A stretch of DNA of 45,609 bases, taken from NCBI GenBank assembly GCA_017631875.1, contig JAGBSL010000034.1, positions 1 through 45,609 of the forward strand, read 5' to 3'. This document shows, one piece after another, positions 17,546-44,511 of the stretch; the first letter of the stretch is position 1, and the number at the start of each line of letters is the position of its first letter. A model generated the notes under the pieces. The model was not told where the DNA came from. It did no database searches and saw only the letters and a program-made list of their open reading frames with translations. Position numbers and translations under genes: made by a program. The DNA comes from Bacteroidales bacterium (GTDB lineage Bacteria > Bacteroidota > Bacteroidia > Bacteroidales > UBA932).

Positions 17546-18799
17546 ATGAAAATCAAACATTTGCTTATCGGTATGCTTGCTGTAGCAGCTGCCGTGGCTT
17601 GTAAAAGGGCGGATGAGCCCGTTGTAGAGCCTAAACTTGATGTCGACAAGGAGGCGGTAGAGGTTGCTGCGACAGCTGGCGAGGCTTCGTTCTCTGTGAC
17701 ATCAAACCAGCCATGGGCTGCAGATTGTGACGCTGACTGGGTGTCTCTTGATCCGGCAAGCGGTTCGGCTTCAAATGTGGCTGTTACTGTAAAAGTTACA
17801 GCCGAGGATAATAAGACAGCCCAGGCACGTGAGGCTACAGTGGCTGTCAAAGCTGGCGAACTTATGAAGACCGTAAAGGTAAGTCAGGCGGCTGGAAAGG
17901 CAGAGGAGCCTGCTCCGGATCCAACACCTGAACCAGAGCCTGAACCAGATCCAACTCCAGAGCCTGAACCAGATCCAACTCCTGATCCAGAACCAGAGCC
18001 GACTCCGGATCCAACCCCCGACCCGGAACCCGAGCCAGAGCCGACTCCGGATCCAACACCTGAACCAGAGCCAGAACCGACTCCTGATCCAACTCCAGAG
18101 CCTGAACCAGATCCAACTCCTGATCCAGAACCAGAGCCGACTCCGGATCCAACCCCCGACCCGGAACCCGAGCCAGACCCGACTCCGGATCCAACACCTG
18201 AACCAGAGCCAGACCCGACTCCGGATCCAACTCCAGACCCTGAGCCAGAACCGACTCCTGATCCAACCCCAGATCCGGAACCCGAGCCAGACCCGACTCC
18301 GGATCCAACACCTGAACCAGAGCCAGAACCGACTCCTGATCCAACCCCAGATCCGGAACCAGAACCGGAGTTGCCTGAAGATTGCATGGTTGCGGAGTTT
18401 GTGCTTGCTGACGAAGGCATGCCGAACAAGTACGATGTGGACAACTGGAAGTTCTGGGTAGACAATAACGTGTCGATCCGATTCAGACAGGGATCTTCAG
18501 GAACTGAGCCTAAGTATTATACTGAGGATCAGTCAGTTCGCATGATTCAAGGCGGATCTACTCTTGAGGTGATGACAAACGAGCACACGGATTATGTGGA
18601 GAGTAAATATACCATCAAGGCTATTGAAATTACTTTTGCATCAGGTCAATGTTACCTTACCCCTGATACAGGAGAATTCTCTGCCGAGGGAGAAGTGCGC
18701 ACTTGGACAGGTTCTGCTGTAAATGTCAAGTTTATTGCTGACGGTACGGATAAAAGCCATCGTGCATATGTAAAATCAATCAAAGTATACTATCAGTAA
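17546..18799 (+). CDS. BACON lipoprotein with long PT/PE/PD linker
   Basis: 417 residues. The first 32 nt of the gene are identical to those of the 8697 gene, and the BACON domain (about 30-115) is close to that of its paralogue. Lipid Cys19. Residues about 124-275 are almost wholly Pro alternating with Glu, Asp and Thr, a stiff, negatively charged stalk. The C-terminal 140 residues (from about 278, [11 protein letters not shown]) form a beta domain with the pattern [20 protein letters not shown], a module I have the impression accompanies other Bacteroidota surface lipoproteins. The stalk would hold this domain away from the membrane. It is last in the operon from 13123 and ends at the terminator at 18820. 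Long open frames on the other strand here are by-products of the repeat. Confidence 0.85.
17910..18370 (+). repeat. Minisatellite coding the Pro-Glu/Asp-Thr stalk
   Basis: Tandem degenerate 6- and 12-nt units of the type GATCCAACTCCA and GAACCAGAGCCG. A higher-order period exists: the 92 nt at 17948-18039 recur exactly at 18086-18177, 138 bp (46 codons) later. All periods are multiples of three, so copy-number change would keep the frame. Confidence 0.9.
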
Positions 18800-18949: not shown

Positions 18950-21733
18950 ATGAAACTCAGAAATCTATTTCTTGGAGTGTGTTCGGCTGTAGCGGTATTT
19001 GCTGCATGTCAGCCGCAGGAGGAGAACCTCGGCACTCCGGACATCTCTATCGACAAGAACGAGATGACATTTGAAGTGGCAGGTGGCGAGCAGCAGCTTG
19101 CCGTGACTGCAACACGTGACTGGAAGGTCGAGACTGACGCTGATTGGGTGGTGGTATCACCTGAGTCAGGCGCTGGTTCGCTTGAGCCTCAAACAGTTAC
19201 AGTTACAGCTCTTGAGAACACAGGCATGGACCGCTCTGCTGACCTCAAGTTCACAATCGGCATGAAGAGCAAGTATCTGACAGTATCTCAGGCAGGTCCT
19301 GGCGGATCGGTAGAGGCTCTCATCGTTTATTCTAACGACTTCGACAAGGAAGAGGCTACCAAGACTTATGGCAGCAGCAACGGCAGCTGGCCATATCTCG
19401 ATCAGTTCGAGGGATGGAAGAATGCAACTGGAACAGGTGCGGCTAATGTGACATATTCATTCCAGGGTATGTCTGCACGCGCAAACTCAACTTCAGACAG
19501 CAACTACTCAGACTATGCAGGTTCAGGTAAGAACAACATGTTCTTCGGTTCTGCCGCATATTTCTCGACAAACAACATCGCTCTTAACGGTGCTACAGGT
19601 CTCACCCTTACTTTCGGTACTGAGAAGTATTCACAGGACAACGGAAGCGTATTCACAAACTCGGAGTACAAGATCTTCCTCAGCAACGACGGTGCTAAAT
19701 GGGTAGAGCTCACTGACTATACATTCGCAGGTGGCACAACAGAGGGCCGCTGGAACATCGCGACAGCAAACTTCACCGTTCCAGAGGGCACTGAGAACCT
19801 CTCTATCTGCATGCAGGTTACTGTAGCAAGCTCATACCGTATGGACGACATGAAGCTTGTGATGTCAGAGGGTGGTGCGGCAGTAGACTTCTCTAAGGGT
19901 GTCGAGATGGATTTCGCAGCTGGTAACACTGGCGGTGGAAACCAGGGTGGCGGTGCATCTGATGCAAACGCTATCTACAGCAACAACTACGATAAGTCGG
20001 CAGCAGTTCAGGGCTCGAACGGATGGCCTTTCCTCGACAGCTCGGATGCATGGAAGAACGCTGCAGGTACAGGTGCTGCAAACGTGACTTACGCTTCAAA
20101 GAACGTTACAGTAAGAAACAACTCGAACTCAAACGGTAATTATTCAGACTACGACGGTTCGGGTCTCAACAATATCTTCTTCGGTAAGGACTATCCTTAT
20201 TTCGCAACAAAGAACATCGCTCTTGGCGGTGCTACCGGCTTGACTCTTACATTCGGTACAGAGAAGTATTCGCAGACTCTCGGCAGCACATTCACAAACA
20301 GCGAGTACCACATCTACCTCAGTAACGACGGTACAAAGTGGGTTGAGCTTACTGACTATACATTCGCTGGTACAGCTGACGGAAGATGGAATGTGGCTAC
20401 TGCAAACTTCACAGTTCCAGCAGGTACTGAGAACCTTTCGATCTGTATGCAGGTTGATGCAGCAAGCGCATACCGTCTTGATGACTTCAAGCTTGTGGCA
20501 TCAGAGGGTGGTGCAACTGTAGATTTCTCTGCTGCAGTAGAGAAGGACTTCAATGCTGGCGCAACCGGTGGTGGAAACGAAGGCGGTGAGACTCCTACTC
20601 CTCCAGCAGGTGACGGTTCAGTTGTAACCATCGCAGAGTTCCTTGCAAACGGCGGTTCTGCAATCGAGGGTATCGTGATCTCTAACATGGATCTCAACAA
20701 CCTCACTTCAAAGAAGGGTATGTACATCCAGGACGAGACAGCTGGTCTTCAGTTCTACCTTGCAGCAAACCACACTTTTGCATTCGGTGACAAGGTTAGA
20801 GTGGATGTTTCAGGCGTTTCTGTAGGTGAGTACAACGGCGCCGTACAGATCAGCGGCCTTGCTCTTGACAAGATCACAAAGATATCTTCAGGCAACACTG
20901 TTACTCCTAAGACAGTTACAATGGCTGACTTCCTCGCAAACAAGTATGAGGGCCAGTATGTGGCTATCGAGGGTGTTCAGGTGGCTGACGCAGACCTCAG
21001 CAAGACATTCGTGATGGGTGGTGCTCATACAAGCATCAAGGTAGAGGATGCAAACGGAAACTCATTCGTCATCTTCTCATCTAAGTATGCTACTTACGGT
21101 ACTCAGACTGTTCCTCAGGGATCAGGTACAATCAAGGGTATCTCTTCAATCAACAACGGCAACATGCAGATCATCTTCGCTCAGAATTCTGACTTTGCAG
21201 GTCTCACAGGTACACGTTTCGACGGTACTGAGGTGACTCCTCCTGCAGGTGGCGGAGACGAAGGTGGTGAGGATCCTGTGACACCTCCGTCAGGCGGTGA
21301 GGGACAGTATGATTCCAATATCACTTGGACTCTTGGCGCTAATGCTTATGATGGATCATCATCTTCTTCACAGAAGGCGACAATCAACGGTATAGATGTT
21401 GACAACATCCTTAAGTTAGGTAAATCGAAGGAGGGCGGTTCTGCTACACTCAACATTCCAGCAGGAACGTCAAAGGTAGGTTTCTATGCAGTCGGTTGGA
21501 AGGGTAATACTGTTAAGCTTAATTGTTCGGTAGGTGGACAGAATGTAGAGCTGTCTATTGCTGCTAATGATGGAGCATCTGGAAATCCTGAACCAAGATA
21601 CATTATGACGGTTTCGGAGTCAGATTACTATACTATTGACATTCCTTCAGGCGCAACAGAAATGGTGCTAAGCACAACAGGAACATCAAACTGTCGTGCT
21701 ATCATCTTCGGAATCAAGACTCTTTCTGAGTAA
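18950..21733 (+). CDS. BACON lipoprotein with duplicated module and DUF5689-like domain
   Basis: 927 residues. Lipoprotein signal MKLRNLFLGVCSAVAVFAAC (Cys20). A BACON domain (about 27-115) is followed by two near-identical modules of about 200 residues (122-325 and 341-545), each with YSNxxDK, GTGAANVTY, LTLTFGTEKYSQ and ENLSICMQV; they look like galactose-binding-type beta sandwiches. A DUF5689/OB-like module follows (about 554-765, VVTIAEFLANGG), then a Gly-rich linker and the C-terminal beta domain (about 785-927, KVGFYAVGWKG) shared with the 8697 protein. Gly/Pro-rich linkers separate the modules. The OB-like part relates it to the 3661 and 27347 proteins, and it lies just upstream of the nuclease genes. 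It probably binds polymer at the surface; the ligand is unproven. Confidence 0.85.
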   Translation: MKLRNLFLGVCSAVAVFAACQPQEENLGTPDISIDKNEMTFEVAGGEQQLAVTATRDWKVETDADWVVVSPESGAGSLEPQTVTVTALENTGMDRSADLKFTIGMKSKYLTVSQAGPGGSVEALIVYSNDFDKEEATKTYGSSNGSWPYLDQFEGWKNATGTGAANVTYSFQGMSARANSTSDSNYSDYAGSGKNNMFFGSAAYFSTNNIALNGATGLTLTFGTEKYSQDNGSVFTNSEYKIFLSNDGAKWVELTDYTFAGGTTEGRWNIATANFTVPEGTENLSICMQVTVASSYRMDDMKLVMSEGGAAVDFSKGVEMDFAAGNTGGGNQGGGASDANAIYSNNYDKSAAVQGSNGWPFLDSSDAWKNAAGTGAANVTYASKNVTVRNNSNSNGNYSDYDGSGLNNIFFGKDYPYFATKNIALGGATGLTLTFGTEKYSQTLGSTFTNSEYHIYLSNDGTKWVELTDYTFAGTADGRWNVATANFTVPAGTENLSICMQVDAASAYRLDDFKLVASEGGATVDFSAAVEKDFNAGATGGGNEGGETPTPPAGDGSVVTIAEFLANGGSAIEGIVISNMDLNNLTSKKGMYIQDETAGLQFYLAANHTFAFGDKVRVDVSGVSVGEYNGAVQISGLALDKITKISSGNTVTPKTVTMADFLANKYEGQYVAIEGVQVADADLSKTFVMGGAHTSIKVEDANGNSFVIFSSKYATYGTQTVPQGSGTIKGISSINNGNMQIIFAQNSDFAGLTGTRFDGTEVTPPAGGGDEGGEDPVTPPSGGEGQYDSNITWTLGANAYDGSSSSSQKATINGIDVDNILKLGKSKEGGSATLNIPAGTSKVGFYAVGWKGNTVKLNCSVGGQNVELSIAANDGASGNPEPRYIMTVSESDYYTIDIPSGATEMVLSTTGTSNCRAIIFGIKTLSE

Positions 21734-21802: not shown

Positions 21803-23014
21803 ATGAAGAAAATCGTATCGATATTCAGATTTACAGCTGTTCTGACACTGATCAGTGCTCTTGTCTTCAGCTCTTGTGATCCGCTTGGAAGCACAGGGAT
21901 TGGAGTCGAAGTGTTCGGGATTACCATCAAGAACCCTAAGGTCGATTCCGGCAAAGGCCAGCAGTTCGTGAACGTGAAGTGCAGCGGTGAGTGGACCCTC
22001 ACTCTCGTGTCGGAGGACGGCACTCCGGATTGGGCGACGCTTAGCGTTGACTCCGGTGTGGGCGACAAGTCCAATGTCGTGCTTTCTTATGGCGTCAATG
22101 ACGGCGAGAATACCAGAACGCTTACTATTTACCTTGACAATGGAAGTCAGACAGTGTCATGTAAGATGGAGCAGCTTCCTGCAGGTCAGCGACCTGATGA
22201 TGACATTGATGATCCGAACGACGATCCTAATGATGGTCAGACAGGTAATGTCGACCTTGCAAAGACAGGATGGCTTGAACTTCCTGCCATGGACAATCCG
22301 AATCTGGGATACTATGCCCATCATTTCAAGATGAACGGCAAGACATACCGCAACTACTCGTTCGGATGGAGCCAGAAGGACCGTGTGGCACTCTGGGTGG
22401 CATATCCGCTCTGTAAGCTCTACACTAACGGAAATGTAGGTCGTACAAACGCATGGGCACTTGACCCGCTTCTTGGAGAAGATTCGGCTGCGCCGTTCGG
22501 AGGTTATGCAGGTGATTATGCGCGAGGCCATCAGCTTCCTTCTGCTGACCGTCAGTGCTGCTATGATGCCAATGCACAGACCTTCTACGGCACAAACATG
22601 ACTCCGCAGCTCAATGCCCACAACGAGAAGATCTGGGCAGATCTTGAGAACAAGGTCAGAGGCTATGCAAACACTTCGGATACTACATATGTGGTTACAG
22701 GTGTTATTGTAAGCCCATCCAGCAAGAAGGAGAGGGATTCATACGGTCAGAGTGTGACTATTCCGGATGCATATTTCAAGGCTGTGCTGAAATACAGCAA
22801 GTCCTCGACCCTCGGTGCATGGAATGCGGCAGCATTTTATCTTGAGCACAGGGCGTATTCGGGCAGCGTCAGCAAGGAACACTCTATGTCGATCGATGAA
22901 CTTGAGGAGATGACAGGAATAGATTTCTTCGTGAACCTTCCTGCTAAGATCGGTGAAGATCAGGCGGCGAAGCTTGAAGCGGCTGATCCGGCTAATTCAT
23001 CAGTTTGGTGGTAA
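21803..23014 (+). CDS. BACON-NUC1 DNA/RNA non-specific endonuclease lipoprotein
   Basis: 403 residues from the ATG at 21803 (MKKIVSIFRFTAVLTLISALVFSSC, Cys25); upstream in-frame TTG/ATG codons only add a few residues through a hairpin. A BACON-like domain (about 35-125) and an Asp-rich linker (DDDIDDPNDDPNDG) lead to a NUC1-type nuclease domain (about 155-403). The motif reads DYARGHQLPSADRQ, with H243 as the expected general base; the family's DRGH has Ala in place of the Asp. A downstream TNMTPQLNAHNEKIW fits the metal-binding Asn region. The enzyme would cut DNA and RNA at the cell surface. It is 5 nt ahead of a second nuclease-family gene and starts a run of genes to the TonB receptor and DUF5689 lipoprotein. 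Confidence 0.9.
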   Translation: MKKIVSIFRFTAVLTLISALVFSSCDPLGSTGIGVEVFGITIKNPKVDSGKGQQFVNVKCSGEWTLTLVSEDGTPDWATLSVDSGVGDKSNVVLSYGVNDGENTRTLTIYLDNGSQTVSCKMEQLPAGQRPDDDIDDPNDDPNDGQTGNVDLAKTGWLELPAMDNPNLGYYAHHFKMNGKTYRNYSFGWSQKDRVALWVAYPLCKLYTNGNVGRTNAWALDPLLGEDSAAPFGGYAGDYARGHQLPSADRQCCYDANAQTFYGTNMTPQLNAHNEKIWADLENKVRGYANTSDTTYVVTGVIVSPSSKKERDSYGQSVTIPDAYFKAVLKYSKSSTLGAWNAAAFYLEHRAYSGSVSKEHSMSIDELEEMTGIDFFVNLPAKIGEDQAAKLEAADPANSSVWW

Positions 23015-23019
23015 AAGAT

Positions 23020-24099
23020 ATGAAAAGAATATTAATCGTTTTTGCAGCGCTGGTGCTTCTGGCTTCCGGCGCACAGGCCCAGGAAAAGGGCTCTAAGAAC
23101 TATGTCATCGGATTCTATAACCTTGAGAATCTGTTTGATACATACAACGATCCGGCAAAGAACGACGAGGAATTCCTTCCTGATGGAAAGAACCAGTGGA
23201 CTGAGGTGAAGTACCAGAAGAAGCTTCAGAACATGGCCAAGGTCATCAGGAGCATGAAGGAGGAAAACGGTGCATGGCACGCCCTTCTTGGAGTTTCCGA
23301 GATCGAGAACCGTCTTGTGCTTGAGGACCTGGTTATGGAACCTCAGATTGCAGAGGCAAACTACCAGATCATCCACTATGACGGTCCGGACCGTCGTGGT
23401 GTGGACGTGGCCCTGCTTTACAAGCCGGAGGTGTTCACCTTCCTTGACAGCGAGTCGATTCCGTTCACATTCGAGGGCAGCTCTATCGACTGGATCCAGT
23501 CGCAGGAGGAACGTGACTACTTCAGGACACGTGATATCCTGATGGTTCATGGCCTTATCGACGGCGAGCACTTCGCCATCTATGTTGCTCACCTTCCTTC
23601 GCGCGCCGGCGGAAAGAAGGGCGGCAACCAGCTCCGCGACCGCGGCGGCGAGATCATGTATAACCATGCAATGATGATGCAGCAGAAGTATCCTGGCATC
23701 AAGATCGTGTGCATGGGCGATATGAACGATAATCCTACAGACCCGTCTATGGCGGAGTATCTCCATGGAAGAGAGTTCAGGGAAGATGTGACCGATGTTG
23801 ATTTCTTCTGTCCTTTCACATCAATGCTCAAGGCCGGCTTCGGTTCGCTTGCATATCAGGGAGTATGGAGCATCTATGACCTTCTTTTGGTGAACAATGC
23901 CCTTGCAAACCCTGCAGAGGGCTCATTCGGCCTACGTCAGCTCCATAAGAAAGGTTACTATGGACGTGTATATAACCCTGCCTTCCTGACCAACCAGAAG
24001 GGCCAGTACAAGGGCACTCCGTTCAGGACATTCTCCAACGGAGCGTTCATCGGAGGCTACAGTGACCACTATCCGACTTATATTGTAATTACCAAATAG
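23020..24099 (+). CDS. Secreted endonuclease/exonuclease/phosphatase family protein
   Basis: 359 residues from the ATG at 23020, 5 nt after the NUC1 gene; an in-frame TTG at 23005 overlaps that gene and is unlikely. Signal peptide ends at LLASGAQAQ (about 21), so it is periplasmic or secreted. EEP-fold motifs appear in order: FYNLENLFD (N34), GVSEIENR (metal-binding Glu, about 94-96), a VAHLPSRAGG His region (about 190), CMGDMNDNPTD (about 234-244) and SDHYP near the C-terminus (D349, H350). Family members hydrolyse phosphodiesters in DNA, RNA or nucleotides. Next to NUC1 it would trim the oligonucleotides made by that enzyme. Exact substrate unknown. Confidence 0.9.
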   Translation: MKRILIVFAALVLLASGAQAQEKGSKNYVIGFYNLENLFDTYNDPAKNDEEFLPDGKNQWTEVKYQKKLQNMAKVIRSMKEENGAWHALLGVSEIENRLVLEDLVMEPQIAEANYQIIHYDGPDRRGVDVALLYKPEVFTFLDSESIPFTFEGSSIDWIQSQEERDYFRTRDILMVHGLIDGEHFAIYVAHLPSRAGGKKGGNQLRDRGGEIMYNHAMMMQQKYPGIKIVCMGDMNDNPTDPSMAEYLHGREFREDVTDVDFFCPFTSMLKAGFGSLAYQGVWSIYDLLLVNNALANPAEGSFGLRQLHKKGYYGRVYNPAFLTNQKGQYKGTPFRTFSNGAFIGGYSDHYPTYIVITK

Positions 24100-24105
24100 T
24101 GAAAG

Positions 24106-24198
24106 AGATTGCCACGTCGCTGCGCTCCTCGCAATGACGTGTGTAAATTGATCGTTTATACGTCATTGCGAGGAATCCGAAGGATGACGTGGCAATCT
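24106..24198. repeat. REP-like composite inverted repeat
   Basis: The left arm (24106-24140, AGATTGCCACGTCGCTGCGC...) and right arm (24160-24198) are inverted copies sharing outer AGATTGCCACGTC and inner CCTCGCAATGACGT. It fills the 115-nt gap before the TonB receptor. A second element with an identical 35-nt left arm lies after the receptor at 27185. Confidence 0.85.
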
Positions 24199-24214
24199 CC
24201 ACAACAGTAAAAAT

Positions 24215-27178
24215 ATGATAAAGAAACTATTTTTAACAATTGCAGCAGTGCTTTGCTCGGCGGCTCTCTTCGCTCAGAGGAGCGACTTCGGAGGAGTTAC
24301 AGGTACGGTAGTGAACCGTGCAGGCAGGGCACCGATCGCCGGCGCCGAGCTGACCCTTTCGCAGGGCGGTGACAAGGTCGCTTCGGCTACGTCTGATGCT
24401 GACGGAAAGTTCCTCATGGAGAATCTTCCGAACGGCATGTACGACATGAAGGTTGTGGCTCCGGGCTTCCTGGATGCCAATGTGAACGTGACTATCGAAG
24501 GCTATGTGAAGGACCTTATCTTCGTAGGTATGATCATAGAGCAGGTGGTTACCGAGGTTGATGATTCAAACTTTGCGGAGTTCGATATGGACGACTCGGG
24601 CTTCGAGGATGCTCCTTCTATCCTCTTCGGATCGAACGACCCGTTCACCAACATCGCAAGCTTCGGATTCAGCAACATCCGCTTCAAGAACAGAGGTTAT
24701 ACAAATGAGTCTCAGGATGTTTACCTCAGCGGCATCAGAATGAACGACGCTATCACAGGCTACTCTCCATTCTCTCTCTGGAGCGGTCTTAATGAGGCCA
24801 TGAGGGCAAAGGAGACAACTGTGGGTAACGAGGTATCAGACTACGGATTCGGAGGATACAACGGTGTGACCAATATCCACGCGATGCCGTCAAGCGTACG
24901 CACAGGCTGGAGATTCAGCGCACTGACAAACAGCGCCCTCTACCGTCTCCGCCTCATGGCGACATACGCTTCAGGCGAGCTTGACAACGGTTGGTCATAC
25001 GCTTTCAACGTGTCTGCGCGTATCGGTGGAAACGACTGGGTTGACGGTGTGTTCTATCGCAACTTTGCATACTATGCAGGTGTTGAGAAGAAGTTCGGCG
25101 ACATCCACCGCCTCAGTCTCGTGACCTTCGCGGCACCTGGCCAGCGCGGCGCACAGAACGCTTCGACTCAGGAGGTTTACGACATGATGGGCGACAACAT
25201 GTATAACTCCAACTGGGGTTATCAGAACGGAAGAGTCCGTAATGCACGTGTCCGTAAGACATTCGAGCCTATCACCATCCTCAAGTATACTGCAACTCCA
25301 ACAGACAACCTCGAGGCTTCGGCGACGCTCCTCTGGAGAACCGGTAAGAACGGATACACTGCCATGGACTGGTATGATGCACCGGATCCACGTCCGGATT
25401 ACTACCGTAACCTTCCGAGCTACTATTGGATGGATGATCCTGACTACGGCCGCCAGAACGCAGAAAAGGCAGCATGGGCTCAGTATGCATGGGAGGAGAA
25501 CATTCCTGAGTATGCCCACCTCAACTGGGACAGACTCTATAATGTGAACTGGAATAACCTTGACGCCAATGGTGTGGCACGCTCCAAGTATGTGCTCGAG
25601 GAGCGTCGCGTGGACCAGAACGATATCAATCTCGGTGCTAACGTTAAGTGGAATGCAAGCAAGGCGTTCACTGTTACAGGTGGCATCAACTACAAGTGGA
25701 ACCGCACTGAGTACTATAAGATCCTCGACGATCTTCTCGGCGGTAACTACTATGTGAACATCGACCAGTTCGCAGAGCGTGACTTCGCTTCTAATCAGGC
25801 TATGGTTCAGAATGACCTGGATTATTATCTGGCTCATGGACAGGCACAGGTTCTCGTTCAGGGCGACAAGTACGGCTATGATTACTATGCAAATGTCCGC
25901 AAGGCAGACATCTGGGCTAACGGATCGCTCGACCTCGGCGGATTCAAGGCAAACCTTGCGCTCCAGGCAGGATATGAGACATTCTGGAGAGAGGGTCTCG
26001 TGAGAAAGGGTCTCTTCCCAGGTCTTAACGATGACGGAACTGAGTTCATGGTGGACGGAAAGAGCCTTACTTCATATGAGACTGTAAACGGCGAGCTTGT
26101 CCCTATCACTTCGAAGGGCAAGTCTGCGGTTTCAGACTTCTTCACATATTCTGGAAAGCTCGGTCTTCAGTACCATTTCGTGGGCGGTCACAGAATTTAT
26201 GCTAACGCAGCTTACTTCAATGACGCTCCTACATTCGCTCAGTCATTCATCTCGCCTCGTACAAGAAACTCTCTTGTACCGAACCTCGAGACAATGAAGA
26301 CCATCTCTACTGACCTGAACTACCAGTTCAGCAGCAACGGATACAATGTGCGCGTGACCGGATTCTTTACCAAGATCATGGACCAGACAGACATGATGAG
26401 CTTCTACGATGACTCGCAGAACTCGTTCACAAACTTCGCCATGAGCGGCATCGACCAGCGTCATATGGGTATCGAGCTCGGATTCAAGGTTCCTCTTCCA
26501 GTACAGGGACTCTCTGTCGAGGGTGCTCTCAGCTGGGGCGAGTACATCTATACTTCGACTCCACGCATGACCCAGACAGTGGATAACAGCGCAGAGATCG
26601 TTCATGATAATGCGCCTGTTCCTTACTGGGCAAGCCATCCGATCTACAAGAAGTACACTGATGACTTCGGCTCAGTGGCATACGAGACAGATGCTGACGG
26701 CAACTATATCGTAGAGAAGAACCAGAAGCACTATGTGCCTTCTACTCCTCAGCTTGCGGCTGACCTCGGTCTTAACTACCGTACAAATTCATACTGGTTC
26801 TTCGAGATCGATGCCCAGTACTTTGCTAAGTCATATCTCGATATGAACCCAGGTTACAGGACTGACCTTGCTGTGAACGGACCTGACGGAGTATTTACTC
26901 CGGTTGAGGTCGAGTACATGGCCGCTCAGGAGGAGTTCAAGCCTGTATTCCTGCTTAACGCAAGCATCGGAAAGTCATGGTACATCGACCGCAAGTATAA
27001 CTTCGGATTCTCTATGAACATCCAGAACATCACCAACAATAAGTGGGTGAAGACAGGAGGTTACGAGCAGACCCGTCTGATCGACTCAGAGAGCGCAGAG
27101 CGTTTCTACCGCTTCGATTCGAAGTACTTCTACATGCAGGGAATTAATTATATGTTGAACCTCTATTTCCGATTCTAG
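24215..27178 (+). CDS. TonB-dependent receptor of the nuclease locus
   Basis: 987 residues. Signal peptide MIKKLFLTIAAVLCSAALFAQ; carboxypeptidase-regulatory-like domain (about 28-110, GTVVNRAGRAPIAGAEL, DADGKFLMENLPNGMYD); plug (about 135-235, FGFSNIRFKNRGYTNESQDV and VYLSGIRMNDA); barrel ending MLNLYFRF with terminal Phe. It imports a bound ligand with TonB energy. It has no SusD partner; instead it lies between an EEP nuclease-family gene and a DUF5689 lipoprotein, which suggests uptake of nucleic-acid breakdown products or phosphate-containing oligomers. That role is inferred from context only. Both flanks carry REP-like inverted repeats, which may shape transcript stability between the genes. 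Confidence 0.93.
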   Translation: MIKKLFLTIAAVLCSAALFAQRSDFGGVTGTVVNRAGRAPIAGAELTLSQGGDKVASATSDADGKFLMENLPNGMYDMKVVAPGFLDANVNVTIEGYVKDLIFVGMIIEQVVTEVDDSNFAEFDMDDSGFEDAPSILFGSNDPFTNIASFGFSNIRFKNRGYTNESQDVYLSGIRMNDAITGYSPFSLWSGLNEAMRAKETTVGNEVSDYGFGGYNGVTNIHAMPSSVRTGWRFSALTNSALYRLRLMATYASGELDNGWSYAFNVSARIGGNDWVDGVFYRNFAYYAGVEKKFGDIHRLSLVTFAAPGQRGAQNASTQEVYDMMGDNMYNSNWGYQNGRVRNARVRKTFEPITILKYTATPTDNLEASATLLWRTGKNGYTAMDWYDAPDPRPDYYRNLPSYYWMDDPDYGRQNAEKAAWAQYAWEENIPEYAHLNWDRLYNVNWNNLDANGVARSKYVLEERRVDQNDINLGANVKWNASKAFTVTGGINYKWNRTEYYKILDDLLGGNYYVNIDQFAERDFASNQAMVQNDLDYYLAHGQAQVLVQGDKYGYDYYANVRKADIWANGSLDLGGFKANLALQAGYETFWREGLVRKGLFPGLNDDGTEFMVDGKSLTSYETVNGELVPITSKGKSAVSDFFTYSGKLGLQYHFVGGHRIYANAAYFNDAPTFAQSFISPRTRNSLVPNLETMKTISTDLNYQFSSNGYNVRVTGFFTKIMDQTDMMSFYDDSQNSFTNFAMSGIDQRHMGIELGFKVPLPVQGLSVEGALSWGEYIYTSTPRMTQTVDNSAEIVHDNAPVPYWASHPIYKKYTDDFGSVAYETDADGNYIVEKNQKHYVPSTPQLAADLGLNYRTNSYWFFEIDAQYFAKSYLDMNPGYRTDLAVNGPDGVFTPVEVEYMAAQEEFKPVFLLNASIGKSWYIDRKYNFGFSMNIQNITNNKWVKTGGYEQTRLIDSESAERFYRFDSKYFYMQGINYMLNLYFRF

Positions 27179-27184
27179 TACTAA

Positions 27185-27331
27185 AGATTGCCACGTCGCT
27201 GCGCTCCTCGCAATGACGTGATGCGCATCTCGCCAGGCAAGTCACAAATACGGCGCATAAAGCAAGTCACAAATGTGACGGACCAGGTAAATGCATACGT
27301 CATTGCGAGGGCTGAAAGCCCGTGGCAATCT
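27185..27331. repeat. REP-like composite inverted repeat
   Basis: Left arm 27185-27219 is identical over 35 nt to 24106-24140; right arm 27297-27331 is inverted (outer AGATTGCCACG, inner CCTCGCAATGACGT). The spacer holds a short tandem AAGTCACAAAT pair. The element lies between the receptor stop and the DUF5689 start, and an open frame through it (from 27188) is spurious. Confidence 0.85.
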
Positions 27332-27346
27332 GTAACACGAAAAGTT

Positions 27347-28441
27347 ATGAAAAGAATTTATATAGCAATATTGGCAGCAGCGGCGCTCTTCGCAGGATGC
27401 GAGGAGTTCCAGCCGGTGATCAACCAGGGCAGATATCCTGATCCTGCGCAGGAGAAGCTCTACACCGACGATGATTTCGGAAAGTTCACTCCGATCTCTG
27501 AGGTGAAGCAGATGTATGTCGACAACGGCAGCAAACCTTACGACATAACAAAGCACTGCGTTATCAAGGGTCAGATCATCACTTCTGACCAGACAGGTAA
27601 CATCTATAAGAGCTTCTATATCCAGGATGCTACAGGCGGTATCGAGATCAAGATCGGAAAGAGCGGTCTCTATAACGATTATAAGGTAGGTCAGTGGATC
27701 TATGTAGACTGTACTGACCTTACAGTAGGAAGCTATGAGGGCATGCTCCAGATCGGCTACAAGGACGAGACAGGAGAATATGAGACAGCATATTTCGAGC
27801 ATTCTGCAATTATCGACCAGCACGTCTTCAAGGGTGCGATGGCTGATGAGAAGGAGATCATCAAGCCTGTAACCATCTCTGGTAACCAGATCTATGATGA
27901 GAAGTATCTCGGTACCCTCGTGACTATCGAGGGCTGCAAGTACTCTAACCTTGTGTTCCTTATCGGCTACATCGATCCTAACATCGTGAAGGAGTCGGAC
28001 AAGAAGTCTAACTGGAACCGTTTCTTCCTTGATGAGGAGGACGGTCATAACTGGAACATCACCTCATGGGCAATGTCCGAGAGCTGCTTCAAGATGCATG
28101 TCGATAATGGCGACTTCGATGCGGCAGTGATGAATGATGGTGTGACAGTAGGCGAGCGCAAGAGTCTTATCAAGCCTCAGCCTTACACCATGAACCAGTT
28201 CTTCGAGATGCCAGGTCTTTCCGGCAATCAGAGATTCCTTCAGGTACGTTCAAGCGGATATGCGAAATGGGCTGACGTGAATATTCCTGAGGCTGTCCTC
28301 AACGGTGAGGCTACCGTAACCTTTACCGGTGTTCTCACAAAGTTCGAGAATGACCGACAGTTCACCCTCATCGACCTGAACGGCGTGAAGAAGGCTGACG
28401 GTTCACCTTGGTATGACGCAAACAATAAAGAAATCAGATAA
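27347..28441 (+). CDS. DUF5689-domain lipoprotein
   Basis: 364 residues from the ATG at 27347, which gives MKRIYIAILAAAALFAGC (Cys18). An upstream in-frame start at 27188 would run through a REP-like repeat and is rejected. The DUF5689/OB-like module (about 45-215) contains PISEVKQMYVDNG, a YIQDATGGIEI core and SYEGMLQIGY. The C-terminal half (about 230-364) ends with a second OB-like stretch (ATVTFTGVLTKFENDRQFTL). I recall this family often next to TonB receptors and EEP proteins in Bacteroidota. Here it likely serves as the receptor's surface lipoprotein in place of SusD, possibly binding nucleic acid through the OB-like fold, which is inference. The M3 peptidase gene begins 2 nt after its stop. 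Confidence 0.87.
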   Translation: MKRIYIAILAAAALFAGCEEFQPVINQGRYPDPAQEKLYTDDDFGKFTPISEVKQMYVDNGSKPYDITKHCVIKGQIITSDQTGNIYKSFYIQDATGGIEIKIGKSGLYNDYKVGQWIYVDCTDLTVGSYEGMLQIGYKDETGEYETAYFEHSAIIDQHVFKGAMADEKEIIKPVTISGNQIYDEKYLGTLVTIEGCKYSNLVFLIGYIDPNIVKESDKKSNWNRFFLDEEDGHNWNITSWAMSESCFKMHVDNGDFDAAVMNDGVTVGERKSLIKPQPYTMNQFFEMPGLSGNQRFLQVRSSGYAKWADVNIPEAVLNGEATVTFTGVLTKFENDRQFTLIDLNGVKKADGSPWYDANNKEIR

Positions 28442-28443
28442 AC

Positions 28444-30471
28444 ATGAAAAAACTTTCACTTATCGCTACAGTAGCTATGGCAGCAGTTGCATGCAACACG
28501 ACAAATCCTCTGATCGAAGGATGGGATACCCCTTACGGAATTCCTGATTTCGGTGCAATAAAGGAGAAGCATTACATCCCTGCGCTCGAGGCAGGTATCG
28601 CTCAGCAGCAGGCAGAGATCGACGCTATCATCGCAAACGAGGAGGCTCCTACATTTGCAAATGTAGTCGAGGCTTATGAGGCATCGGGTGCTATCCTTGA
28701 CCGCGTTGTCGGCGTTCTCTTCAACCTTTCAGAGACTGATGGAACAGATGCTCTCAATGCAGTTATGGAGCAGGCTCTCCCTATGCTTTCTTCGCACTCG
28801 GACAACATCACTATGAACCCTGCGTTCTTCGCTAAGGTTGATGCCCTTTATCAGGACATCGAGAATCTCGGCCTCAACCAGGAACAGAAGATGGCACTCA
28901 AGAAGCTCCACAACAGCTTCGTAAGCAACGGTATCGCTCTTGACGAGGCTTCTCAGGCACGCATGCGCGAGATCAATGCAGAGCTTTCATCTCTTTCAAA
29001 CACATTCGGAAACCGTCTCCTCGCAGAGAACAACGCTTTCGCAGCTGAGTTCGGCGTGACCATTTCAGAGTACGGCGAGGCAATGGCAGCGACAGCTGAC
29101 CGCGCTCTCCGTGAGAAGATGTTCAGAGCATACGCTTCACGCGGCAACAACGGCAATGAGAATGATACAAAGGACCTCATCATGAAGATGATGGCTCTCC
29201 GTATCGAGAAGGCTAACCTTCTCGGTTACGAGAACCCAGCCCAGATGATCCTCAACGACAAGATGGCAGGCAATCCTGAGACTGTGGACACATTCCTCGC
29301 AGGCATCATCGCTCCGGCTGTCGAGAAGGCTAAGGCTGAGATCGTGGACATGCAGGCTATCATGGACCAGGACATCGCTGCAGGTCTTCTTCCTGAGGGA
29401 TCGAAGATCGAGGCTTGGGACTGGGCTTACTATACTGAGAAGGTGCGTGTAGCTAAGTACGCTCTCGATGAGGAGCAGACAAAGCCATACTTCCAGATGG
29501 AGAATGTTCGTCAGGGTGTGTTCGACCTTACAACAAAGCTCTTCGGTCTTCAGTATGAGAAGCTTGAGGGTATCCCTACATACCATGCTGACGTAGAGGG
29601 ATTCAAGGTTATGGACGCTGACGGTTCGCTTATCGGTGTGATCCTTACCGACTACTTCCCACGCAGCACAAAGAGAGGCGGCGCATGGATGAACAACTTC
29701 GTTAACCAGGAGATCGTCAACGGTGTTGAGATCCGTCCTGTAATCGTAAACGTAGGTAACTTCGCGAAGCCGGTTGACGGCAAGCCTTCGCTCATGACCC
29801 TCGACCAGGTGGAGACACTCTTCCATGAGTACGGACATGCACTTCACGGCCTCCTCAGCCAGTGTACATACAAGAGCGTTGCAGGTACATCTGTAGCACG
29901 CGACTTCGTGGAGCTTCCTTCGCAGATCATGGAGAACTGGGCATTCCAGCCAGAGGTTCTTGCTACATATGCACGTCACTATGAGACAGGCGAGATCATC
30001 CCTGCAGAACTCGTGGAGAAGATCAACGCTACAGGTACATTCAACCAGGGCTTCATGACCACAGAGCTTGCAGCTGCTGCCATCCTCGACCTCAAGTGGC
30101 ACATGCTCGAGTCACTTCCTGTCATTTCGAGCGAAGTCGAGAAATCTTTCGTAGAAGAGTTCGAGGCAAAGGCATGCGCAGAGATGGGTCTCATCGACGA
30201 GATCATCCCACGTTACCGCACAACATACTTCGCCCACATCTTCAGCGGCGGATACAGCGCAGGTTACTACAGCTACCTCTGGGCAGAGGTGCTTGACAAG
30301 GATGCATTCGAACTCTTCATGGAGAAGGGCATCTTCGACGCTGAGACAGCAATGTCATTCCGCAAGAATGTCCTCGAGAAGGGTGGCAGCGACGAGCCGA
30401 TGGATCTCTACCGCCGCTTCCGTGGCGCAGATCCGGACCCTGCAGCCCTAACTCGTGCTCGCGGTCTCTAA
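28444..30471 (+). CDS. dcp: M3 family dipeptidyl carboxypeptidase, lipoprotein
   Basis: 675 residues, the usual length for Dcp-type M3 metallopeptidases. Lipoprotein signal MKKLSLIATVAMAAVAC (Cys17). The zinc motif LFHEYGHALHG gives H461, E462 and H465, with the third ligand Glu near 490 (VELPSQIMENWAF). RYRTTYFAHIF and GYSAGYYSYLWAEVLD are the conserved substrate-binding region. It removes C-terminal dipeptides from oligopeptides in the periplasm or at the surface. It follows the DUF5689 gene by 2 nt and is probably co-transcribed. Residues 560-568 (VISSEVEKS) are encoded by a REP-like repeat lying in frame, between KWHMLE and the conserved C-terminal part; the linker seems some residues longer than I expect. 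Probably still active. Confidence 0.93.
   Translation: MKKLSLIATVAMAAVACNTTNPLIEGWDTPYGIPDFGAIKEKHYIPALEAGIAQQQAEIDAIIANEEAPTFANVVEAYEASGAILDRVVGVLFNLSETDGTDALNAVMEQALPMLSSHSDNITMNPAFFAKVDALYQDIENLGLNQEQKMALKKLHNSFVSNGIALDEASQARMREINAELSSLSNTFGNRLLAENNAFAAEFGVTISEYGEAMAATADRALREKMFRAYASRGNNGNENDTKDLIMKMMALRIEKANLLGYENPAQMILNDKMAGNPETVDTFLAGIIAPAVEKAKAEIVDMQAIMDQDIAAGLLPEGSKIEAWDWAYYTEKVRVAKYALDEEQTKPYFQMENVRQGVFDLTTKLFGLQYEKLEGIPTYHADVEGFKVMDADGSLIGVILTDYFPRSTKRGGAWMNNFVNQEIVNGVEIRPVIVNVGNFAKPVDGKPSLMTLDQVETLFHEYGHALHGLLSQCTYKSVAGTSVARDFVELPSQIMENWAFQPEVLATYARHYETGEIIPAELVEKINATGTFNQGFMTTELAAAAILDLKWHMLESLPVISSEVEKSFVEEFEAKACAEMGLIDEIIPRYRTTYFAHIFSGGYSAGYYSYLWAEVLDKDAFELFMEKGIFDAETAMSFRKNVLEKGGSDEPMDLYRRFRGADPDPAALTRARGL
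30120..30147 (+). repeat. REP-like repeat inside the M3 peptidase gene
   Basis: 28 nt identical to the reverse complement of 199-226, core TCGAGCGAAGTCGAGAAA. It is read in frame as VISSEVEKS, a peptide typical of this repeat when translated. Confidence 0.85.
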
Positions 30472-30496: not shown

Positions 30497-30538
30497 CAAT
30501 CGTCTCGGAAAAATCGCAATGTTTTTCCGAGACGATTG
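30497..30538. repeat. RAYT-type palindrome 1
   Basis: CAATCGTCTCGGAAAAA and its exact reverse complement, 17 bp each, with an 8-nt loop. It lies just after the M3 peptidase gene, where it could also end transcription in both directions. A half copy (ATCGTCTCCGAAAAA) follows at 30571-30585. Confidence 0.88.
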
Positions 30539-30610
30539 TCATTTTGCGGCCTTTTGCCAAGTTTCCCTTCATCGTCTCCGAAAAAGAGGCCAGTTTTTAC
30601 AAGACAATCC

Positions 30611-30618
30611 TATCTTTG
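30611..30618 (+). promoter_or_regulatory. -7 box TATCTTTG, 4 nt before the sialidase start
   Basis: Full match to TAnnTTTG ending 4 nt before the ATG at 30623, the same spacing as at 13111. The message would be leaderless or nearly so. Confidence 0.55.
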
Positions 30619-30622
30619 CAAA

Positions 30623-31876
30623 ATGAAGTCATATATCAGATCCATAGTTACCGTAGCAGCCGTCCTTCTGTTGGCTGCCTCTTGCGGAGTCAAGCAGAAT
30701 ATCAGAGAACATGTGCTGTTCCAATCCGGTGTTGCCGACAGCATTCCTTACCGCATTCCAACTATAGCGAAGATGCATAACGGAGATATCCTCGCCTTGA
30801 CTGATTACCGCCTTTGCAACATGGATATCGGTTATGGCAGGGTAGATATCCATGGCCGTATTTCACGTAATGGAGGAAGGGCATGGGGCGAAGAGTTCGT
30901 CCTGATCGAAGGTTCGGGAGTGTCTGGAGCGACCGACTGCGGTTTCGGTGATGCCGCTATGGTTGCTGACAGGGAGAGCGGCGATGTGCTTGTGATTATG
31001 GTCTGTGGAGAGACTGTCTATTGGCATGAGACCACGACCAGGCAGAACCCGAACAGGGTTGCAGTTTTAAGAAGCAGCGACAACGGCAAGACATGGAGTC
31101 AGTGGGAAGAGATAACAGAATCTGTATATACACTCTTTGATGATTCTGTTCATGGCTGTGTGCAGAGCTGCTTTGTCGGCTCGGGCAAGATATTTCAGAG
31201 CAGACAGATAAAGGTCGGAAGTCATTATCGAATTTATGCGGCGTTGTGCGCACGCCCAAACGGCAACAGGGTAATCTACAGCGATGATTTCGGTCATACA
31301 TGGCACGTCCTTGGCGGACCGGATGCTCTTCCTGTGCCGAATGGTGATGAGCCTAAATGTGAGGAACTTCCGGACGGACGCGTAATCATCAGTTCAAGAG
31401 CATGGGGAGGCCGTTATTTCAATATATATGAATATACTGACATGGCTTCCGGAGCTGGTGCCTGGGATGAGGTAGTAGGGTCAGGAAAGAAGGTTAACGG
31501 CTGCGCGTCACTCGAAAACGCCTGCAATGGAGAGCTTCTGATTGTCCCGGCAGTCCGCAAGGAAGACCGCAAGAAGGTCCACCTTGCACTTCAGTCAGTT
31601 CCACTGGGACCCCAACGAGCCAACGTCGGCATCTATTATAAGGAACTGCCGGAAGACATCGCATCCATCACTCCAGAATCCTTTGCTGCAAATTGGGAAA
31701 AGCCGTATCAGGTATCCGACACCACTTCCGCATACTCCACAATGCTTCAGCTGAAGAACGGTAACATCGCCTTCTACTACGAGGAATCCATCACTCTGAA
31801 TGGCTGGGGCTACGACATGGTTTATAAGGAAATTCCTCTGGAAATCCTGACCTCTGGCCGCTATTTCAGTAGATAA
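30623..31876 (+). CDS. GH33-type exo-alpha-sialidase lipoprotein
   Basis: 417 residues from the ATG at 30623 (MKSYIRSIVTVAAVLLLAASC, Cys21); a start at 30536 would read through a palindrome. Sialidase motifs: the Arg of YRIPT (R44), Asp boxes SSDNGKTW and SDDFGHTW plus the degenerate SRNGGRAW, an EPKCEELPDGR segment carrying the expected Glu, an ISSRAWGG Arg, and a SAYSTM Tyr near the end, the likely nucleophile. It would release terminal sialic acid from glycans outside the cell. It has its own -7 box and sits between REP-like palindromes. The mannosidase cluster nearby suggests a shared N-glycan target, as sialic acid caps complex N-glycans. GH33 is likely but other BNR-repeat enzymes cannot be excluded. 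Confidence 0.85.
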   Translation: MKSYIRSIVTVAAVLLLAASCGVKQNIREHVLFQSGVADSIPYRIPTIAKMHNGDILALTDYRLCNMDIGYGRVDIHGRISRNGGRAWGEEFVLIEGSGVSGATDCGFGDAAMVADRESGDVLVIMVCGETVYWHETTTRQNPNRVAVLRSSDNGKTWSQWEEITESVYTLFDDSVHGCVQSCFVGSGKIFQSRQIKVGSHYRIYAALCARPNGNRVIYSDDFGHTWHVLGGPDALPVPNGDEPKCEELPDGRVIISSRAWGGRYFNIYEYTDMASGAGAWDEVVGSGKKVNGCASLENACNGELLIVPAVRKEDRKKVHLALQSVPLGPQRANVGIYYKELPEDIASITPESFAANWEKPYQVSDTTSAYSTMLQLKNGNIAFYYEESITLNGWGYDMVYKEIPLEILTSGRYFSR

Positions 31877-32069: not shown

Positions 32070-32990
32070 ATGAAAAAGACCTACCATCTATGCTTGTCTG
32101 GTGGCAATGAAGTGATGTGTCGCCATGACAGGGATTATATCCATGCTAATAACTGCCTATGTCTTGCAGCTCATAAAACTGATTCTTCGTTATTGGCGTA
32201 TAGTATCATGTCAAATCATACGCATATAGGTGTAAGGACAGAAGACCCTTACGCCTTTATGAAGGCTTTCCGGTATCCATATAACAGATACTTTAACCAA
32301 AGATATGGCAGAAAAGGAATGCTCGGTGAGAGGCATTTCTTCCAAAGTGAGATTGATGGGATATACCACTTTCTTGCAATGATTTCATATATATTGAGAA
32401 ATGCCTTGCATCATGGAGTATCGGCTACTCCGTTCGGGTATAGGTATTCTTCTATCTGTGCACTGTTTCGTGAGGAACTGGGTTATTTTGTTGAACCTGA
32501 GCTGATGCCGAGGAAGTCACAATACCTCTATCTTCCGGGCAATGACCCACTTCCTGATGGATTTAAAATGGATGTTTCAGGATTGATTCTTCCACAAAGC
32601 GTAATTGATGTCGCAGATGTCGAGCACCAGTTTTCTACTGCCCGAACATTCCTATACTACATGAACAGACTTTCCGGAGAGGCATGGGAGAAAGAACAGC
32701 TGCAGGATGCTGTCAATGTTCCTCCAATAACGCTTGAACAGATTGAGAGCTGTGTCAGATATCAAGATCTGAAGACAATGCTGGGAAACGAGCACGGAAG
32801 GGCAAACTATAATGCAATGAATGACATACAGGTCTGTTGTATAATAGATAAGATGTTAGGAGAGAGGTCGGTTTATGAGGTGTCGCAGGATGAAATAGAT
32901 CGTTTGTCAAAATATCTTCGTGGTACCTGTCACATTTCACAAGATCAGGCTAACAGATGCCTTGCCGGTAGATTGTTGTTGAACCTTTGA
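32070..32990 (+). CDS. RAYT: REP-associated tyrosine transposase (Y1_Tnp)
   Basis: 306 residues. The HUH signature is SIMSNHTHIGV (H50, H52), and the single catalytic Tyr is Y107 in ISYILRNALHHG. GERHFF and RNALHHG are typical of IS200/IS605-like RAYT proteins. The second half (about 180-306) is helical with a C-terminal region ending CHISQDQANRCLAGR. Such proteins nick and join REP hairpins and are domesticated single-copy genes rather than free transposons. Five palindromes with the core GTCTCGGAAAAA surround it within 2.6 kb, so they are its likely substrate. There is no accessory gene and no flanking target duplication that I can see. Confidence 0.9.
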   Translation: MKKTYHLCLSGGNEVMCRHDRDYIHANNCLCLAAHKTDSSLLAYSIMSNHTHIGVRTEDPYAFMKAFRYPYNRYFNQRYGRKGMLGERHFFQSEIDGIYHFLAMISYILRNALHHGVSATPFGYRYSSICALFREELGYFVEPELMPRKSQYLYLPGNDPLPDGFKMDVSGLILPQSVIDVADVEHQFSTARTFLYYMNRLSGEAWEKEQLQDAVNVPPITLEQIESCVRYQDLKTMLGNEHGRANYNAMNDIQVCCIIDKMLGERSVYEVSQDEIDRLSKYLRGTCHISQDQANRCLAGRLLLNL

Positions 32991-33163: not shown

Positions 33164-34267
33164 TTATCTGCTGAGCTGATGCAGGGCAAAGGCGTAGGCG
33201 CCGAGTGAGACGGCCTTGTTGGCTCCGATCTTCGAGAGGGCCACGCCGATGCGCTTCTGCGGGTCGTATGTGACTTCGATCTCGCTGTTGTAGATCTTGA
33301 GCTGGCGCTGCTCTCCCTTGAGGAACTGTCTGAGCTCTTCCTTGTCATCAAGATCGTATACCTTGCTGGCGAGCTTGTTGATTTCCTCGCCGTTGAGGCG
33401 CTTCATCTTGCCTCTGATGCTCTCGAACATAGAATCCTTGATGTATTTATATGCTCCCGAGAGTCCGCCTCCGATCACTACCAGTCCGTCTATGATGGAT
33501 ACTGTCATTGCTATGACATCTCCCAAAGCCGCTCCAAGCTGCGCGAACGCTCCCTTTGCCGCTTCCATGTCACCTTCCTTCACGCCCTCTGCGATCTCGA
33601 AGATGTCCTTTGGAGACAATCCATGATCAGGGTTGCCGCTCAGTTCGCCGTACATTCTCTTGACCGCTCTGATGGAGATACCCTCCTCTGCAATCACGTC
33701 AGGACGTCCTTTCAAAGGAATGCTGAACATCTCGATACATGAGTTGTCACCTCTGTTGAGCTGTCCGTTCGCAACCACACCGATACCGAGTCCTGTTCCG
33801 AGGGTGAATCCCACAAGGTTCCTGTATCTCTTCCTGTTACCATAATCGTCAAGCATCTCGTTCACTTCCGGAAGAAGACCGCCGAGGGCCTCACCGTAGG
33901 CATAGAGGTCTCCGTCGTTGTTGATGTATACAGGCATGCTGAACTTCTTCTTGAGATATGGTCCGAGGGCCACTCCCTCACGGAATGCAGGGAAGTTGAG
34001 CAGCTGGCCTCCGATGATGCCGTTAGGATAGTCGGCAGGACCTGGGAATGCGAAGCTGATCGCCGCAGGACGCTCGTCCAGCTGGTCGATGATGGTCCTG
34101 AAGCCCTCTACCATTGTGCTGAGACACTTGTCCAGATCGTCAGCATAGGCTGGGAGAGTAAGAGGCTCGACGATGAATTCTCCTCTCTGCATGGCTCCGA
34201 AAACCATGTTTGTACCTCCTGTATCAAGGGTCAGGATGATGCGGGGGTCTGTGGTATAGCTTATCAT
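33164..34267 (-). CDS. ROK family sugar kinase, lacking the zinc motif
   Basis: 367 residues, cytoplasmic. An ATP-binding LTLDTGGTN (residues 13-20) and the catalytic Asp in INNDGD (about D118) match the ROK family, as does FTLGTGLGIGVV (about 154-165) and VVIGGGLSG. The usual CxCGxxGCxE zinc-binding signature is absent: the expected place reads RGDNSCIEMFSIPLKGR. This marks an atypical ROK member. It likely phosphorylates a hexose such as glucose, mannose or an amino sugar. It lies 55 nt downstream of the mannosidase genes on the same strand, so a role in using released mannose is a reasonable inference. A -7-like box in the gap suggests it can also be transcribed separately. Confidence 0.88.
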   Translation of the reverse strand: MISYTTDPRIILTLDTGGTNMVFGAMQRGEFIVEPLTLPAYADDLDKCLSTMVEGFRTIIDQLDERPAAISFAFPGPADYPNGIIGGQLLNFPAFREGVALGPYLKKKFSMPVYINNDGDLYAYGEALGGLLPEVNEMLDDYGNRKRYRNLVGFTLGTGLGIGVVANGQLNRGDNSCIEMFSIPLKGRPDVIAEEGISIRAVKRMYGELSGNPDHGLSPKDIFEIAEGVKEGDMEAAKGAFAQLGAALGDVIAMTVSIIDGLVVIGGGLSGAYKYIKDSMFESIRGKMKRLNGEEINKLASKVYDLDDKEELRQFLKGEQRQLKIYNSEIEVTYDPQKRIGVALSKIGANKAVSLGAYAFALHQLSR

Positions 34268-34286
34268 AATTGTGCGGTTAGTTCTA

Positions 34287-34294
34287 CGAAGATA
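34287..34294 (-). promoter_or_regulatory. Candidate -7 box (TATCTTCG) for the ROK kinase
   Basis: Same octamer as at 295-302, 20 nt upstream of the ROK start. No -33 element is evident. Confidence 0.35.
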
Positions 34295-34312
34295 GTTAAA
34301 TTTTTGGAATAT

Positions 34313-34340
34313 AGATCCTTCACTATCGTTCAGGATGACA
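34313..34340. repeat. REP-like repeat overlapping the GH92 stop codon
   Basis: AGATCCTTC, then ACTATC, then GTTCAGGATGACA: an imperfect inverted pair of a third Bacteroidota repeat type. It supplies the final residues CHPER and the TAG of the GH92 gene. Confidence 0.65.
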
Positions 34341-40162: not shown

Positions 40163-40188
40163 AATGTATTGGTTATCAGTGCTTTGTT

Positions 40189-40222
40189 AAAACCGCGTGC
40201 CGCAAAAGGGGAGCACGCGGTT
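40189..40222 (-). terminator. Rho-independent terminator after the third GH92 gene
   Basis: On the minus strand AACCGCGTGC pairs with GCACGCGGTT (10 bp) and leads into TTTT. It lies in the 74-nt gap between the GH92 gene and the GH92-GH125 gene, so it may limit read-through. I see no clear -7 box for the next gene. Confidence 0.75.
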
Positions 40223-40236
40223 CTTGTAAGTTGTTG

Positions 40237-42468: not shown

Positions 42469-42470
42469 GA

Positions 42471-44486: not shown

Positions 44487-44511
44487 GGCGTCATCAGTTT
44501 CAGTTAACTTA

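Follow-up and report, generated by a model that had tools for sequence, protein, structure and literature searches.

The stretch of DNA analyzed here, hereafter the window, comprises 45,609 nucleotides (nt) of contig JAGBSL010000034.1 (assembly GCA_017631875.1) from a Bacteroidales bacterium of the lineage UBA932, and contains an array of four genes encoding a NUC1-type nuclease lipoprotein, an EEP-type nuclease, a predicted outer-membrane receptor of the TonB-dependent type, and a lipoprotein with a DUF5689 region (Table 1). The original prediction placed the two nuclease genes 5 nt apart and ahead of the receptor and DUF5689 genes on one strand, and coordinates and Pfam matches agree with this arrangement, as they do with the further DUF5689 module noticed in the larger lipoprotein encoded just upstream, in which two similar internal repeats can be read by eye. 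From the gene of this larger lipoprotein to that of the M3 peptidase, the intergenic gaps are, in order, 69, 5, 115, 165, and 2 nt. Promoter and terminator scans gave results at chance level.

Table 1. Features of the window. E, expectation value; RA0C_RS, locus tags of Riemerella anatipestifer.
Feature	Position	Strand	Matches and assignment
BACON lipoprotein	17546-18799		Long Pro-Thr/Asp-Pro-Glu repeats
Larger lipoprotein	18950-21733	+	BACON PF13004 and DUF5689 PF18942 (E 5e-34); probable accessory member
NUC1	21803-23014	+	PF01223 Endonuclease_NS (E 7e-35), sub-threshold BACON; predicted surface nuclease lipoprotein
EEP	23020-24099	+	PF19580 Exo_endo_phos_3 (E 5e-91); Sec-type signal without lipobox; predicted periplasmic
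Inverted elements	24107-24199		Contain CGTCATTGCGAG
Receptor	24215-27178	+	PF13620 CarboxypepD_reg (E 4e-14) at N-terminus; predicted outer-membrane beta-barrel, TonB-dependent type; homolog of RA0C_RS04915
Inverted elements	27186-27335		Contain CGTCATTGCGAG
DUF5689 lipoprotein	27344-28441	+	PF18942 (E 1e-41); predicted surface; homolog of RA0C_RS04920 over DUF5689 region
M3 (Dcp-like) peptidase	28444-30471	+	PF01432 (E 2e-129); starts 2 nt past DUF5689 gene; possible co-transcribed passenger
BNR sialidase-like gene	30536-31876	+	NeuramTDE0471 as best NCBIfam match, scoring under the cut-off
Transposase gene	32070-32990		Y1/REP-associated type
Glycosidase cluster	33164-45592	-	GH92 genes (three, one of them in fusion with GH125), ROK gene, CotH-kinase protein, phosphoglycerate-mutase-like gene

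The first nuclease had been described as a BACON-NUC1 protein; its nuclease part is clear from the PF01223 match, whereas its BACON part scores below the Pfam cut-off (22.0 versus 25 bits). NUC1 belongs to the Endonuclease_NS family by domain match and by its catalytic motifs, with the exception of the D of the DRGH motif, since positions 22520-22531 encode ARGH, in which RGH is kept and D is replaced by A. Among 77 NUC1 relatives, 74 contain RGH, preceded by D (28), A (18), T (16), Q (4), N (4), S (3), or G (1), and three have no RGH. The enzyme aligns with the solved chains of NucA (E 1e-15), Serratia nuclease, EXOG, and EndoG; it shares its catalytic domain with the NucA/Serratia-type nucleases but differs from them in being a lipoprotein with a BACON-like stretch and in the lack of conservation of the first DRGH residue. 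A D-to-A change at the equivalent position is reported to weaken Anabaena NucA. The EEP protein belongs to the Exo_endo_phos_3 family, as it combines the domain match with all six EEP motif patterns. Among its 79 relatives, these patterns occur in 79 (GD.ND), 79 (SDH.P), 77 (FYN.EN), 77 (E.EN), 61 (RG.D), and 42 (H.PSR..G) proteins, the last two thus being less regular.

Signal peptides and lipoboxes were judged by a crude sequence pattern. The lipobox of NUC1 reads LVFSSC, and that of the DUF5689 lipoprotein is followed by EEF in the window sequence. Because the lipobox pattern is present in most relatives of both proteins (54 of 77 for NUC1 and 73 of 78 for the DUF5689 lipoprotein), they are placed at the surface. 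The EEP protein had also been suggested to act there; however, 69 of its 79 relatives begin with a Sec-type signal that has no lipobox, which fits the periplasm better, and the enzyme is probably periplasmic rather than exposed. Regarding the receptor, no plug or barrel model (PF07715, PF00593) reached E 0.1 against the window protein in the Pfam search, and the assignment of plug and barrel therefore rests on the family labels of relatives: PF00593 is carried by many of the 120 receptor relatives listed, and one Flavobacterium member is named as a plug-domain protein. In sequence searches against solved structures, the receptor gave only chance matches or short ones at its N-terminus, and nothing convincing was found for DUF5689, for which an OB-like fold had been proposed (one search without a match, the others with best E values of 0.07 and 0.98). 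Eleven remote receptor relatives (20-22% identity) lie on viral contigs, and the DUF5689 family model also matches in Bacillus subtilis, a control genome. Inverted elements of REPIN-like type, in which CGTCATTGCGAG occurs, flank the receptor gene as two pairs; the window has four exact copies of CGTCATTGCGAG versus 0.31 expected with one mismatch allowed.

A scan of named genomes confirmed at least 574 relatives, and the best 80 loci were examined. Of these 80 Bacteroidales loci, 75 have the full order NUC1-EEP-receptor-DUF5689, and the remaining five are truncated by contig ends. Upstream of the receptor, EEP is present in 79 loci; DUF5689 is downstream in 78, and NUC1 precedes EEP in 77, the three without NUC1 being again cut by contig ends. 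A relative of the larger DUF5689/BACON lipoprotein lies upstream of NUC1 in 65 of the 80 loci and an M3 peptidase downstream of DUF5689 in 57. As these loci are mutually related, the counts indicate retention within Bacteroidales, not independent events. Recurrence of the four-gene order had been proposed as a check on the locus, and the synteny is conserved, far above the paralog control described below; the genes can accordingly be regarded as one unit.

A receptor profile was applied to a phylum sample of 247 genomes, of which 75 matched at E 1e-30. The high-scoring receptor group comprises 39 genomes (two matched in two pieces), and all but one (G001, covered already by the preceding analysis) were taken, giving 38 loci, with 22 paralog loci chosen from the lower-scoring matches. 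DUF5689 is adjacent to the receptor in 37 of the 38 loci versus none of the 22 paralog loci, although the queries used did not recover the receptor in four of the latter, where the absence of DUF5689 may partly reflect insensitivity. EEP_3 is adjacent in 23 of the 38 (21 head to head and two co-directional) versus 1 of 22, and NUC1 or Endonuclease I occurs within the stretch in three and one, respectively. Six of the 38 loci (L137, L138, L139, L140, L161, and L163) have a second, paralogous receptor no more than about 12 kb from the main one, and at locus L173 a paralogous receptor is near Endonuclease I and ComEC matches. Two families carry the receptor almost throughout: it was found at E 1e-100 in 177 of 199 genomes of one, inferred to be Flavobacteriaceae, and at E 1e-120 in 140 of 148 genomes of the family of Riemerella and Chryseobacterium, where 20 loci chosen from the positive genomes all have DUF5689 adjacent and 19 have EEP_3 head to head. 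A plasmid-collection search yielded eight records with receptor matches. In four of these, from Flammeovirga, Aureibacter, Bacteroides finegoldii, and Prevotella F0039, homologs with 29-32% identity stand beside DUF5689 and nucleases, and the partners across the four comprise NUC1, Endonuclease I, EEP_3, another EEP family, and an OB-fold protein. The pair is accompanied by two EEP nucleases and Endonuclease I in Flammeovirga and Aureibacter, with Endonuclease I fused to DUF5689 and a lamin-tail domain in the Flammeovirga member, and by NUC1 and the OB-fold protein in Prevotella F0039. Apart from a Phocaeicola record considered below, the remainder are Persicobacter (22% identity) and two short matches outside the phylum.

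The main clue to the function of the array comes from Riemerella anatipestifer. According to a report on a transposon screen for natural transformation in this species (PMC8459023), markerless deletion of either RA0C_RS04915, a carboxypeptidase-regulatory barrel, or RA0C_RS04920, a protein with DUF5689 and DUF5017, abolishes transformation. A companion report describes that tonBA and tonBB are both required for a normal transformation frequency, the mutants transforming less, and that iron acquisition is not reduced in the tonBA mutant (PMC8383284). In the literature searched, DUF5689, alone or together with TonB, was named only in PMC8459023; other literature may exist. The R. anatipestifer locus was reached via a Chryseobacterium relative and identified by gene order and by a named-protein match, its receptor sharing 94% identity with a protein that bears the name R. 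anatipestifer. Pfam gives the order ComEC (PF03772), a gene without match, carboxyl transferase, EEP_3 (divergent), receptor, and DUF5689 with DUF5017. Three genes separate ComEC from the receptor, the same number as between RA0C_RS04895 and RA0C_RS04915 if consecutive tags differ by five, as in the table of PMC8459023; with this spacing, EEP_3 would be RA0C_RS04910.

The window receptor aligns with the R. anatipestifer receptor over its full length (28% identity, residues 1-987, E 2e-104), the window EEP with the EEP_3 beside the Riemerella pair (29% identity, E 3e-57), and the window DUF5689 lipoprotein with the Riemerella protein over 188 aligned positions (30% identity, E 3e-18). A tree was built from 75 receptors, 51 of which, namely those of the window, of Riemerella, and of the other group members, form one clade with a support of 0.963, apart from 24 paralogs; within it, Riemerella groups with Chryseobacterium and Flavobacterium (support 1.0) and the window with Flammeovirga and Aureibacter (support 0.847). 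The two loci thus share a homologous full-length receptor of one clade, a DUF5689 partner in the same order, and an EEP_3 neighbor. They differ in that EEP_3 is divergent in Riemerella and co-directional in the window, that the 19.9-kb Riemerella stretch contains no NUC1 match, and that the Riemerella DUF5689 protein bears an extra DUF5017 region; moreover, function was derived from deletions there, whereas the window array is known from its genes. The paralogous receptors were also considered as the Riemerella relatives and were rejected by the locus comparison (DUF5689 in 0 of 22) and by the receptor tree. A Flavobacterium receptor considered as near-Riemerella was rejected by comparison with proteins named Flavobacterium. 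PMC8459023 gives 59.6% identity for RA0C_RS04915 in Flavobacterium, with which the 33-34% identity between the Flavobacterium-like receptors of locus L133 and loci L138-L140 is at odds. The same source, whose synteny analysis covered Flavobacteriaceae, describes homologs of the pair as spread in Bacteroidetes, yet those of RA0C_RS04915 as present only in Flavobacteriaceae; this restriction is too narrow.

These results suggest that the array is a TonB-powered outer-membrane importer of nucleic acid, to which a surface nuclease was added in Bacteroidales and in which the EEP protein is probably periplasmic. The nucleic-acid link proposed at the outset is supported: a nucleic acid is very probably the substrate, and import of DNA itself can be considered probable. 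Since the homologs of the receptor and DUF5689 lipoprotein in Riemerella are both essential for transformation, DNA uptake is likely to be the function common to both, with food as one possible use. Homology, gene order, the single receptor clade, and the EEP motifs are established, and from them we infer every transport step as follows. The NUC1 lipoprotein would cut long polymers at the surface, where the DUF5689 lipoprotein would capture nucleic acid, most likely DNA, and the TonB-powered barrel would carry the captured DNA into the periplasm. EEP_3 may then trim the entered material, and the product would go to salvage or be delivered to HhH and ComEC proteins. In this Bacteroidales, use of the imported material as a nutrient or source of phosphate may be no less important than transformation.

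The receptor and DUF5689 lipoprotein would thereby act like a SusCD pair without SusD. The array resembles a SusCD polysaccharide utilization locus in its proposed working, with a predicted barrel bearing an N-terminal regulatory-like domain, an adjacent lipoprotein predicted at the surface, and a predicted surface depolymerase. It differs in its enzymes, which are PF01223 and PF19580 nucleases instead of polysaccharide-degrading enzymes, and in the absence of SusD, already noticed originally and upheld here, as no SusD-family lipoprotein was found among the 23 open reading frames (ORFs) of the window scanned at E limits of 0.1 and 0.01. The "DNA-degradation loci" of Ca. Izemoplasmatales (PMC8289736) likewise co-localize DNA-degrading genes, and lamin-tail and nucleic-acid-binding domains recur in them, the former being found in the Flammeovirga member as well. 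They belong, however, to another phylum and have probable nucleoside or nucleobase transporters instead of an outer-membrane receptor.

Several observations weigh against this interpretation. The window receptor is only 28% identical to that of Riemerella, and the window NUC1 lacks the D of DRGH. Of the 38 phylum loci, 15 have no adjacent EEP_3 (the Flavobacterium-like clade accounts for 12 of these), and only three have NUC1 or Endonuclease I; the nucleases are therefore not obligatory. One receptor locus of the phylum sample (L153) has no DUF5689, nor has the distant Phocaeicola record (24% identity), whereas small EEP-type matches lie within 20 kb of three of the 22 paralog loci. A surface nuclease would shorten transforming DNA, and ComEC, DprA, and HhH, present in the relatives, are present in most control genomes too. 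The part of PMC8459023 available contains no test of a role of EEP_3 in Riemerella, and binding, transport, or growth on nucleic acid was not found reported for any Bacteroidales member.

Among the alternatives, a purely nutritional role is possible, though somewhat doubtful. The array would supply carbon, nitrogen, or phosphate, with NUC1 fragments imported, trimmed by EEP_3, and salvaged, and would have no part in transformation. A dedicated surface nuclease argues for food, and NUC1 precedes EEP in all of the 80 Bacteroidales loci except three cut by contig ends; nuclease-rich versions exist in two Cytophagales records, and Bacteroidota (Lutibacter) assimilate DNA carbon in sediment (PMC8289736). 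The experimental record of the homologs, which act in transformation, argues the other way, and the scan of 23 window ORFs, some of them without any family match, recognized no nucleotidase or nucleoside-transporter family. Nothing on nucleic-acid utilization in connection with Bacteroides and TonB was found in the literature searched, although other literature may exist.

That the array serves transformation alone, as the outer-membrane stage of Bacteroidales transformation in which the nucleases process incoming DNA like the uptake nucleases of other competent bacteria, is rather unlikely. It would follow the Riemerella homology most directly, and in Porphyromonas gingivalis the route of DNA into the periplasm is called unclear (PMC11532111). 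The genomes of 18 of the 80 loci contain ComEC (18 of 18), DprA (18 of 18), NamZ/DUF1343 (17 of 18), and HhH (17 of 18, counted in a frame of 200-360 codons), and the HhH protein of one relative is homologous to that of Riemerella (E 5e-18). However, the ComEC, DprA, and HhH families also match in 10-11 of 14 control genomes and thus do not discriminate, and a Flavobacterium genome (G172) has the receptor and no NamZ/DUF1343 match. The HhH protein was found in 39 of 39 receptor-positive genomes versus 27 of 208 others; as it is suspected to be nearly class-wide, this co-occurrence was not counted as evidence. One of the 14 stretches (L219) was left out of the HhH alignment owing to a wrong frame, and as the phmmer ComEC queries missed a ComEC that Pfam found at L190, absence of ComEC from other loci is uninformative. 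NUC1, an extracellular cutter, also fits poorly with transformation alone, and no competence report for this clade was found in the literature searched.

It is improbable that the receptor imports an unrelated ligand, such as a metal chelate or a peptide, with the nucleases as chance or clean-up neighbors. The M3 peptidase gene that follows the DUF5689 gene after 2 nt speaks for such a ligand; nevertheless, nucleases, EEP_3 among them, are repeatedly found next to receptors of this group and far less often next to the paralogs, and the homolog is essential for transformation in Riemerella (PMC8459023). Still less probable is a role in defense or biofilms, in which NUC1 and EEP would destroy surrounding DNA (biofilm matrix, phage DNA, or host DNA traps) with import as secondary, for although extracellular nucleases of other bacteria have such roles (PMC6085458), the receptor-DUF5689 core would be left unexplained, as it is retained even at loci that have no nuclease next to it.

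Regarding the remainder of the window, the BACON lipoprotein upstream of the array is probably a surface spacer, and the BNR sialidase-like gene follows the M3 peptidase gene. The downstream cluster, in which the GH92/GH125 genes lie from 34323 on the strand opposite to the array, is an alpha-mannosidase cluster and apparently unrelated to the nuclease array.

A DNA-importing receptor-DUF5689 pair would bear on the question of how Bacteroidota bring DNA across their outer membrane; in P. gingivalis, a type IV pilus-like conjugation pilus is reported not to be involved in DNA entry to the periplasm (PMC11532111). The pair studied in Riemerella (PMC8459023) is here shown to be present in Bacteroidales and Cytophagales as well, where nucleases are its recurrent neighbors. 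We tentatively suggest that the pair may be the outer-membrane DNA channel of the class Bacteroidia, ancestral, pilus-independent, and TonB-driven, which would serve transformation in Riemerella and its relatives and, in gut Bacteroidales, where a surface nuclease has been added, feeding and possibly transformation; EEP_3 would be the uptake nuclease of the periplasm. The finding gives DUF5689 a probable role and makes testable a class-level hypothesis on how gut bacteria feed on DNA and exchange genes.

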